A stretch of 14,299 bases of DNA, taken from positions 1-14,299 of the forward strand of contig DAOWHZ010000098.1 in the NCBI GenBank assembly GCA_030641105.1, written 5' to 3'. Positions 1,755 through 12,921 of the stretch are shown here, piece by piece (positions within the stretch are counted from its first letter, which is position 1; each line of letters begins with the position of its first letter). The notes beneath the pieces are model-generated. The model ran no database searches. It had not been told where the DNA came from and saw only the letters and a program-made list of their open reading frames with translations. The DNA comes from a bacterium. GTDB lineage: Bacteria; Patescibacteria; ABY1; BM507; VMTK01. Made by a program: the position numbers and the translations under genes.

Positions 1755-2444
1755 ATGAAAACATTTTGCATCATCCCAGCTTATAATGAAGAAAAAACTA
1801 TTGTTGAAGTTATAAACAGCGTTAAGCCATTAGTTGATCAAGTGGTTGTGGTTGATGATGGCTCTGGTGATAGGACTTTTGAGCTGGCTGAAGCGCGGGA
1901 TGTTACAGTATTGCATCATATTATAAACAGAGGACAAGGTGCGGCTTTAAAAACAGGCACAGAGTATGCTTTGCGAAATGACGCGGATATTATTGTTCAT
2001 TTTGACGCTGATGGCCAGTTTTTAGCCAGTGATATGAAAAGTGTTGTTAAGCCAATAAAAGATGGAGTTGCTGATGTTGTTTTTGGTTCTCGTCTTTTAA
2101 ATAAACAATCAGACATTCCTTTTGTTAAAAAAAATATTATTTTACCCTTAGCAAAATTTGTTAATAGAATATTTTTTGGCATAAGAATGACAGATCCGCA
2201 AAGCGGATTTCGCGCTATGTCGGCTCAAGCCGCTAAACAAATAGATTGGCAACAAGACAGAATGGCTCATTGCTCGGAAATTTTATTTGCCGCGGGAAGG
2301 CGAAACGTCGACGTTTCGCCTTCCCGTGGAAATTTAAAGATTAAGGAAGTGCCAATAACAGTTATTTATCATAATTTTGGCCAACGGCTTAGCGATGGTT
2401 TTCGGATTTTAAAAGATTTGTTTTTAGCCAGACTTATAAATTGA
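1755..2444 (+). CDS. GT2 glycosyltransferase, polyprenyl-phosphate mannosyl/glucosyltransferase-like
   Basis: A 229-aa GT-A fold transferase of the dolichol-phosphate mannosyltransferase (DPM1) type, expected to move a sugar from a nucleotide donor to a lipid phosphate at the inner membrane face. Visible motifs: IPAYNEE (7-13), VVDDGSGDRT (32-41), the metal-binding DADGQ (84-88), GSRLL and DPQSGFRAMS. There is no C-terminal membrane domain; a small DUF2304 membrane protein follows, a pairing common for this family. Odd feature: codons about 180-192 (AGRRNVDVSPSRG) are encoded by a 34-bp perfect palindrome that looks like an in-frame insertion between SEILF and KIKEVP, two blocks normally closer together. 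No Shine-Dalgarno precedes the ATG. Acceptor and sugar are unknown. Confidence 0.9.
   Translation: MKTFCIIPAYNEEKTIVEVINSVKPLVDQVVVVDDGSGDRTFELAEARDVTVLHHIINRGQGAALKTGTEYALRNDADIIVHFDADGQFLASDMKSVVKPIKDGVADVVFGSRLLNKQSDIPFVKKNIILPLAKFVNRIFFGIRMTDPQSGFRAMSAQAAKQIDWQQDRMAHCSEILFAAGRRNVDVSPSRGNLKIKEVPITVIYHNFGQRLSDGFRILKDLFLARLIN
2293..2326. repeat. 34-bp perfect palindrome inside the GT2 coding sequence
   Basis: Perfect two-fold symmetry is centred between 2309 and 2310 in GTCGAC, with two more pairs (2290-2291 with 2328-2329) after one mismatch. The arms contain GAAGGCGA and TCGCCTTC, the same outer arms as the palindromes at 6566-6627 and 12863-12921. It is read in frame as part of the protein. 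Confidence 0.95.
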
Positions 2445-5315: not shown

Positions 5316-6554
5316 ATGAAAATTTGTTTAATTAATAATTTATATAAACCATACAATCGCGGCGGAGCCGAGCGAATTGTTGAACTGATTGCGCAAGGCC
5401 TGCAAAGTCAGGGCCATGATGTTTTTGTGATAACCACAAAATCGCGTAACGCACAACGTGTAACCCCGCAAATGCTCCGCAAAACGGGGCAGGCGCGTAA
5501 TGCTCAGCAGAAAATTTATTATATAAATGCTTTATATTATAATCTTGCTGTTTTGCCTAAATTTTTACGGCTGTTTTGGCATTTGGGTGATATGTTTGAT
5601 GTTGGCAGTTACTTTAGAGTAAAATCAATTTTAAAAAAAGAAAAACCGGATATTGCAATGACGCATAATTTAAAAGGTGTTGGCTATTTGATTCCTAAAG
5701 CTATAAAAAGTTTAAGCATAAAGCATATACATACTTTGCATGATATTCAATTATTGCATCCGTCTGGTTTAATGATTTGTGGCAAGGAAAAACAGGTTGA
5801 TAGTGTTTTGGCAAAGATGTACGCGAGTATCTGTCGTTGGCTCTTTGGTTTTCCAGATATTGTGATTTCACCGTCTAAGTGGTTAATGAAGATGCATACG
5901 GATAGAGGGTTTTTTAAGGAATCAGAGAAGGTGGTAATTTTTAATCCCTACCCCTCACCCCCCTGTCTGCGCAGGCAGGCAACCCCTCTTCCGCTGCGGC
6001 GGGAGAGGGGAGTTGAAATTCAAACTAAAAATGGCAAATTCAATTTTTTATATGTCGGCCAGATTGAAGAGCATAAAGGCGTATTATTTTTAATTAAAAT
6101 TTTTAAGATGCTACGCGAGGATTTAGAAGATGCAAACTGTGAGTTAATAATTATTGGAGATGGTTCAAAATTAAAACAAGCTCAAAAATTAGCTGGTGAT
6201 GATAGCGGGGTAAAATTTTTAGGCAGAGTTGGTAATAAAGACTTACTGATGATGATGCAGGAATATAATATTTTAGTTGTGCCGTCCTTATGTTATGAAA
6301 ATTCTCCAACTGTGATTTATGAAGCATTAAGCGCTGGTTTGCCTGTTATTGCTTCGCGAATTGGCGGTATTACAGAATTAATCCATAAAACAGCAGGAAT
6401 TTTGTTTAAGCCGGATAATCACGGTGATTTAATGTATCAGATGAAATGGGCCATGGAACATAGTGAGGAGTTGCGGGAAATAAGCGAGACAGGAAAAGAA
6501 AAAGTTAAGCAATTTGGGCTTGATTTTTATATTAAAAATTTGGTAAAAATGTAG
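5316..6554 (+). CDS. GT4 family glycosyltransferase with in-frame repeat insertions
   Basis: A 412-aa GT-B glycosyltransferase, a second GT4 enzyme of the surface-glycan region. It opens with KICLINNLYKPYNRGGAERI, the usual acceptor-domain start. The donor domain begins at FNFLYVGQIEEHKGV, and the EX7E block is ENSPTVIYEALSAGLPVIAS. Two stretches look foreign to the fold. Residues 212-234 (YPSPPCLRRQATPLPLRRER...) are encoded by two tandem GC-rich hairpins and sit in the linker between VVIFNP and NGKFNFLYVG. Residues about 43-63 (SRNAQR...ARNAQQ) are encoded by a hairpin flanked by near-direct repeats. The frame stays open through both. No Shine-Dalgarno. The gene ends 11 bp before a bidirectional palindrome. 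Substrates are not deducible. Confidence 0.92.
   Translation: MKICLINNLYKPYNRGGAERIVELIAQGLQSQGHDVFVITTKSRNAQRVTPQMLRKTGQARNAQQKIYYINALYYNLAVLPKFLRLFWHLGDMFDVGSYFRVKSILKKEKPDIAMTHNLKGVGYLIPKAIKSLSIKHIHTLHDIQLLHPSGLMICGKEKQVDSVLAKMYASICRWLFGFPDIVISPSKWLMKMHTDRGFFKESEKVVIFNPYPSPPCLRRQATPLPLRRERGVEIQTKNGKFNFLYVGQIEEHKGVLFLIKIFKMLREDLEDANCELIIIGDGSKLKQAQKLAGDDSGVKFLGRVGNKDLLMMMQEYNILVVPSLCYENSPTVIYEALSAGLPVIASRIGGITELIHKTAGILFKPDNHGDLMYQMKWAMEHSEELREISETGKEKVKQFGLDFYIKNLVKM
5444..5503. repeat. Hairpin flanked by near-direct repeats inside the second GT4 gene
   Basis: CCCCG (5464-5468) pairs with CGGGG (5485-5489), with an inner TGC/GCA pairing. The flanks CGCGTAACGC (5444-5453) and GCGCGTAATGC (5493-5503) are similar and make the protein repeat SRNAQR/ARNAQQ. 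It is GC-rich compared with its surroundings. It is a candidate in-frame insertion, less certain than the one at 5949-6011. Confidence 0.55.
5949..6011. repeat. Tandem GC-rich hairpins inside the second GT4 gene
   Basis: The first hairpin is CCTGTCTGC/GCAGGCAGG at 5962-5979 with one G:T pair. The second is a 12-bp stem, CCCCTCTTCCGC (5983-5994) with GCGGGAGAGGGG (5999-6010), again with one G:T pair and a 4-nt loop. The first hairpin shares a 15-nt exact stretch (5962-5976) with the minus strand of 12528-12542, so it is a dispersed repeat. It is translated in frame as residues 212-234. Confidence 0.88.
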
Positions 6555-6565
6555 AATTTGAAGTA

Positions 6566-6627
6566 AATAACAAAAAAATAATGAAGGCGAGGTTTGCAAA
6601 CCTCGCCTTCATTATTTTTTTGTTATT
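6566..6627. terminator. 62-bp perfect palindrome, probable bidirectional terminator
   Basis: Perfect symmetry centres between 6596 and 6597 (GGTTTG|CAAACC). The arms include A7 on the left and T7 on the right, so both strands give a GC-rich stem followed by a U run. It lies between the convergent GT4 (ends 6554) and clpB (ends 6701) genes, where it can stop both. The arms GAAGGCGA/TCGCCTTC match those at 2293-2326 and 12863-12921. Confidence 0.9.
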
Positions 6628-12504: not shown

Positions 12505-12581
12505 TTTTAGAAAGCAGAAAGCAGCCCGCCTGCGCAGACAGGAAAGCAGATAACAGAGAAGCTGCTTTTTGTTTTCTAAAA
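12505..12581. repeat. Nested inverted repeat between thpR and the DUF167 gene
   Basis: Outer arms of 21 nt (12505-12525 and 12561-12581, about 19 matches) are of the TTTTAGAAAGCAGAAAGCAGC type. Inside is a GC palindrome, CCTGCGCAGACAGG (12529-12542), shared on the opposite strand with the coding hairpin at 5962-5976. The right arm ends in a T-rich run, so it may weakly terminate thpR transcription, but it abuts the next start codon. Confidence 0.75.
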
Positions 12582-12862: not shown

Positions 12863-12921
12863 CAAACAAAAAAATGAAGGCGAATCCCGCCGAGCGGGAT
12901 TCGCCTTCATTTTTTTGTTTG
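12863..12921. terminator. Perfect-arm palindrome, probable terminator after the DUF167 gene
   Basis: 28-bp perfect arms (12863-12890 and 12894-12921) around a 3-nt loop. A7 lies in the left arm and T7 in the right. The arms contain GAAGGCGA/TCGCCTTC, as in the palindromes at 2293 and 6566, but the core (ATCCCGC/GCGGGAT) is different. It lies between convergent genes and gives a T run on either strand. Confidence 0.9.

Follow-up and report, generated by a model that had tools for sequence, protein, structure and literature searches.

A REP-like palindrome read in frame inside a GT2 glycosyltransferase gene of Patescibacteria, and the RAYT-type transposases associated with its family in related genomes

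We analysed a 14,299-nucleotide stretch of Patescibacteria DNA, referred to here as the window, and found within one of its GT2 glycosyltransferase genes a perfect palindrome that appears to belong to a dispersed family of REP-like elements 28 bases long. On the sequence evidence laid out below, this copy was probably inserted, in frame, by a RAYT-type (TnpA-REP, Y1/HUH) transposase. The element is built of fixed 8-base tips, GAAGGCGA...TCGCCTTC, flanking a variable, self-complementary 12-base core. The relevant features of the window are the following:

1755..2444, plus strand: gene for the GT2 glycosyltransferase (229 aa) in which the element lies (ORF call and PF00535)
2293..2326, no strand: 34-base perfect palindrome (inverted-repeat detection, arms 17, loop 0)
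2296..2323, no strand: 28-base element within the 34-base palindrome, tips GAAGGCGA and TCGCCTTC, core AACGTCGACGTT
2295..2330, plus strand: codons 181-192, peptide GRRNVDVSPSRG (translation and 120-protein alignment)
6583..6610, no strand: another 28-base copy, core GGTTTGCAAACC, embedded in a perfect palindrome of 62 bases (6566-6627) that lies between convergent ORFs and resembles a terminator
12876..12908, no strand: third copy, 33 bases with a 3-base loop, inside a palindrome (12863-12921) between convergent ORFs, terminator-like

An initial annotation had placed a 34-bp palindrome in the GT2 gene, within 2289-2330, and had stated that the reading frame is preserved. We found the palindrome there, perfect, with two arms of 17 bases and no loop, although the proposed limits are a few bases too wide and the true ones are 2293-2326. 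It lies in frame in the 229-aa ORF, reading G-R-R-N-V-D-V-S-P-S (GRRNVDVSPS) from codon 181, and outreaches the 28-base element by three bases on each side. The minimum free energy fold of positions 2275-2344 as RNA contains the hairpin, with -37.6 kcal/mol and a z-score of -7.57 (-7.25 when folded as DNA), and no shuffle out of 200 was equally stable.

The GT2 ORF matches PF00535 (E = 1.4e-24). The best PDB sequence match of its protein is the dolichol-phosphate mannose synthase 5mlz, and the best Foldseek match of its structure model is ArnC (9bhc), with DPMS (9ep0 and 5mlz) and GtrB among the top matches. Those close proteins and loci that carry a name come from Patescibacteria, and several of them are labelled Falkowbacteria. 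We aligned the best 120 of 6694 proteins with MAFFT, the window's own (P0001) included, and measured the spacing between I176, the I of the SEI helix, and E198, the E of the KEVP strand. This spacing is 12 residues in 117 of the 120 proteins and 21 in both the window protein and P0002, which is 90% identical to it and has the same residues; the earlier estimate of about 11 residues in related enzymes and 20 in this one was therefore close. The spacing is 17 in P0003 (83% identical), where the stretch reads CRRGADVSHT, and which we read, from the protein alone, as a partly lost or different copy of the element. Compared with the 117 proteins, the window protein gains 9 residues, or 27 bases. 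Judged from this alignment, the palindrome is an insertion, and the longer loop is restricted to the window lineage among the 120 aligned proteins instead of being the loop length of the family. The closest GT2 DNA locus in the genome scan is 69% identical in its best segment, and no nearer one was found at E <= 1e-85, either in the class (380 genomes) or in the order (111 genomes).

In the structure model of the GT2 protein (mean pLDDT 78, built from 30 sequences), residues 184-191 have a pLDDT below 50 and lie between the helix 172-181 and the strand 196-200, which is the location between helix and strand that the initial annotation had indicated. Other weak parts of the model are residues 111-150 and the C-terminal 30 residues, with block means of 54-66. 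The extra residues are predicted to form a disordered loop between helix and strand, and for this reason the enzyme likely still works.

Two further copies lie in the window. Palindromes of the form AGGCGA-N(4-20)-TCGCCT occur three times in it, compared to none in 200 shuffles, which supports the view that the GT2 palindrome is more than a chance occurrence. The word GAAGGCGA occurs six times in the window, each time as an arm of one of the three palindromes and never alone. Both intergenic copies score as terminators on both strands. The copy at 6583 is base for base the same 28-mer as one found in a Y1 transposase ORF of a related genome, G279 (L178:2340). The third copy has the inner arms ATCCCGC/GCGGGAT, and a 32-base copy resembling it was observed in G462, a genome of the phylum sample (L123).

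The family extends to other genomes. The order to which the best GT2-matching genome belongs was searched for the pattern GAAGGCGA-N(4-24)-TCGCCTTC, which was present in 15 of 111 genomes, whereas a reversed-pattern control was present in 1 of 111. Twenty-seven of the 32 places in the order span exactly 28 bases, and at these 27 places 150 of 162 core pairs are complementary, even though the pattern left the core free. Places of other lengths in the 15 genomes (22, 23, 25, 29 and 30 bases) likely include some chance matches. A fixed-length search with at most two tip mismatches in 16 genomes, mostly picked because earlier pattern searches had matched in them, returned 87 places compared to 7 for the control, with 1-14 matches per positive genome; many of the tip mismatches come in pairs, with both tips changed together. 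In the phylum sample the pattern was present in 7 of 379 genomes and the control in 3, which is near background with the exception of G475, which has 4 copies, and perhaps of G462. The AGGCGA...TCGCCT pattern was at background level in the first six relatives, with 12 places and 11 for the control, and a GTAG-tipped version, GTAGGCGA...TCGCCTAC, was found in none of the 111 genomes of the order. We also observed on a related contig (L058, 3181-3211 and 11944-11974) two palindromes GTAGAGAC...GTCTCTAC with differing cores, which resemble the 28-base design in a double-foot form with GTAG.

We scored where the copies lie relative to genes, using at most 3 tip mismatches and at least 11 of 14 pairs as criteria. 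The window was covered together with 60 stretches that had been picked by eye because they hold palindromes, a selection that is not a random sample. Among the resulting 65 placements, 43 are outside ORFs of at least 120 aa and 22 are inside. An A-rich left or T-rich right flank is found for 35 of the 43 outside copies compared to 1 of the 22 inside copies. The 22 include some redundancy (L187/L190 and L188/L191 are the same gene in sister genomes), two copies near the C-terminus (L138 and L170) and one poorer palindrome (L162). Copies are read in frame in UvrA, DNA polymerase I, a MurD-like protein, a SpoU methylase and TsaD. At the element, the UvrA of G454 has 12 residues more than 27 of 29 other UvrAs and 13 more than the other two, in an alignment of the 30 best loci from 105 matching genomes. 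Relative to the best PDB match, 12 extra residues are seen both in UvrA and in DNA polymerase I; for the MurD and SpoU proteins the PDB matches are remote and align too loosely for the inserts to be sized. The UvrA and DNA polymerase I palindromes were observed in frame at L193 (G454:C26) and L194 (G454:C31), respectively. Sister genomes were compared at the copy in the SpoU methylase and at the one in what is presumably a lamin-tail protein, and the regions differ, with no clean gap or empty site. The net gains of 27 bases in GT2 and 36 bases in UvrA are neither of them 28, and no target duplication is evident at these two copies.

Eight of the 22 in-ORF copies fall within six ORFs whose match to PF01797 (Y1_Tnp) exceeds the cut-off:

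PF01797 ORFs with copies: L135, L142 (two copies), L155, L167, L178 (two copies), L186

In all six ORFs one copy is located between the HUH region and a conserved FKWQ block and reads EG-x5-RL; the six cores are all different, and the protein region and the frame are the same. The other L178 copy is close to the transposase N-terminus. In the transposase ORF of G267 (L142, 1680-2423) the palindrome was observed twice, within a 37-residue tandem duplication. In G409 the same 28-mer is found just upstream of and inside the transposase ORF, an arrangement that comes near to what the literature calls a REPtron. A profile of 33 of these transposases has a single PDB match at E <= 0.01, namely 4er8, the E. 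coli TnpA-REP (E = 1.5e-12). The columns of H67, H69 and Y177 are at least 90% conserved among the 33 sequences, and in the alignment to 4er8, of the W-Q...H..R guide-recognition residues that PMC6006769 names for E. coli TnpA-REP, W, Q, H and R match and the E is D. The exceptions are L135, L186 and P0168, in which the second H of HUH (H69) is N, and L155, which stops early, before the Y; because of these changes the L135, L186 and L155 transposases may be inactive. In the transposase model, the ten-residue block with the loop has a mean pLDDT of 57, compared to 83 in the flanking blocks.

Furthermore, the signature of the palindrome can be followed in the transposase protein itself. The peptide E[GSD]-x5-R[LFP] is present in 48 of the 66 listed transposase homologues, most of which were assessed by peptide, the palindromic DNA being read in six genomes. 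A perfect 28-base palindrome can encode 28 of its 32 distinct forms. For the EG-x5-RL peptides, 24 of 26 distinct forms are encodable in this way, compared to 1.1 +/- 1.0 (largest 4) in 200 column shuffles. The deduced palindromes include some that were observed in genomes; for example, EGEIRESRL corresponds to two G007 copies.

A related transposase was found at E <= 1e-10 in 8 of the 111 genomes of the order, and 7 of these are among the 15 element-bearing genomes (P = 1.4e-6), with a query from an element-bearing genome, which favours co-occurrence. The G453 match is a fragment only, and the eighth genome, G004, has a 30% relative. At the same threshold there was no match in 8 of the 15 element-bearing genomes, including G007 with its six places; these are metagenome bins, and other RAYT types would escape the query used. 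Association of the element with a Y1 TnpA-REP gene is found, accordingly, in G475 and, within the order, in 7 of the 15 genomes that bear the element. The window itself shows no RAYT, and the link to the window's own genome would be one of kinship.

Collectively, the RAYT association and the in-gene copies in relatives argue for a REP-like element that was likely mobilised by a RAYT, rather than for one of the Rickettsia type. Rickettsia palindromic elements are short palindromes translated in frame, RPE-1 being longer, and by description the GT2 copy resembles them in this. The initial annotation had proposed an insertion with the frame kept, which stands, and had taken these elements as the parallel; with a RAYT-like Y1 transposase associated with the family and carrying copies of it, they are not supported as the best one. 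A selfish palindrome of that kind, spreading by some unspecified route without a RAYT, would reduce the transposase copies to mere gene insertions. It would agree with the in-frame copies in unrelated genes (SpoU methylase, MurD-like, TsaD, UvrA, DNA polymerase I) and with the 8 element-bearing genomes in which no transposase was detected, but we consider it unlikely in view of six genomes sharing one transposase region and frame with six different cores, of the fit of the homologues' peptides to palindromic coding, and of the co-occurrence of transposase and element.

The great stability of the GT2 hairpin could also mean that this copy is retained because it acts on its own messenger, through attenuation or stability. 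The terminator scores of the window's other two copies and the A-rich and T-rich flanks of most copies outside ORFs point in this direction; however, the GT2 copy is absent from the 31 terminator-like sites, such flanks are found for a single in-ORF copy, and 117 of the 120 aligned proteins do without the extra residues, which makes a function of this kind improbable. A local inverted duplication by template switching in the GT2 gene, with no mobile family involved, would account for the palindrome being three bases longer than the element on each side, but not for tips and a total length that match copies elsewhere in the window and in other genomes, and we regard it as very improbable. Paired uptake words are found in Neisseria-type terminators, and the inverted GAAGGCGA pairs at gene ends could be taken for such DNA uptake signals. 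This reading was dropped, as there is no lone GAAGGCGA word in the window; the exact 28-base span of most pairs in the order also speaks against it, and we give it hardly any credence.

The favoured reading, a RAYT-mobilised element, has close relatives in the literature. In its features the element fits the REP sequences of TnpA-REP subclass 2.4, for which Quentin et al. 2018 (PMC6006769) describe double-foot REPs as well as REPs placed in frame within the transposase gene, as a rule between HuH and Y. Common to both are the foot repeated at both palindrome ends, the presence of REPs in unrelated genes, a transposase akin to E. coli TnpA-REP, and a REP-like copy in frame between HUH and Y (seen here in the DNA of six genomes and by peptide in the homologues). 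The two differ in the foot, which is GAAG/CTTC here and GT[AG]G/C[TC]AC there, in the layout, where constant tips of 8 bases enclose a variable core and the whole is mostly 28 bases long, and in the host, Patescibacteria not being named for subclass 2.4 in the portion of PMC6006769 considered. The element is a palindromic dispersed repeat within the REP range of about 20-50 bases, it is mostly outside genes (43 of 65, at loci picked for palindromes), and in relatives it is associated with a Y1 TnpA-REP gene; we call it REP-like because it lacks the GT[AG]G foot, its tip being GAAG. According to PMC6006769, subclass 2.6 and class 3 sequences are also without GT[AG]G. With 1-14 matches per positive genome, it is far from the about six hundred reported for E. 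coli K12 (PMC8266576). Whole REPs tagged GTAG or CGTC have been described inside ORFs, with targets that include uvrA and DNA polymerase I (PMC3733652), the same two genes as in G454, whereas the present copies lack these tags and are single 28-base units. In that account, R. conorii RPE-4 and RPE-6 are counted with the intragenic CGTC repeats, and these repeats were found to lack an association with transposase genes (PMC3733652). The two intergenic window copies resemble intrinsic terminators, unlike the GT2 copy, which is not in the terminator list. In-frame REPs in RAYT genes and unrelated genes are thus a kind already known, and it is the GAAG foot, the mostly fixed 28-base layout with a free core and the Patescibacteria setting that differ; no REP or RAYT work in Patescibacteria was found among the best literature matches.

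Under the RAYT hypothesis, the transposase would bind the single strand in its folded form, as E. coli TnpA-REP is reported to do. The E. coli enzyme needs GTAG and cuts at CT (PMC8266576); the spread of REPs by TnpA-REP is itself a proposal, not shown in vivo, in the part of that source considered. The transposase would move the copies, most of which would land outside genes and may serve there as terminators. A copy inside a gene would survive if it lengthens the gene by a net multiple of three bases, if it brings no stop and if its residues fall in a loop. In a more speculative reading, which we consider less likely than not, the mobile repeat of these bacteria would have its master copy in the transposase gene: the variable, self-complementary core in the RAYT frame would set the genome's 28-base repeat, the core would drift by paired changes, and GT2, UvrA and DNA polymerase I would receive ready-made in-frame loops. 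If so, the GT2 copy would come from a RAYT with the loop EGETSTFRL. Apart from this speculative reading, the element offers a case in reduced genomes of mobile palindromes turning into protein sequence, in a family whose repeat sequence is readable from the transposase protein itself, and it makes testable both the recognition by a RAYT of fixed tips with a changing core and whether such transposases still move repeats.

The window holds other repeats as well. A second palindromic repeat, CTGTCTGCGCAGGC[AG]GG, is found at 5963-5979 (plus strand) and 12525-12541 (minus strand), compared to none in 200 shuffles, and its copy at 5963-5979 belongs to the GT4 ORF 5316-6554, in whose frame it reads SPPCLRRQATPLPLRRERG. 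Finally, 60-61-base inverted repeats and a 52-base direct repeat (94%) at 1107-1235 and 1694-1753 flank a PD-(D/E)XK nuclease-like ORF at 1215-1646 and extend in part over its start.
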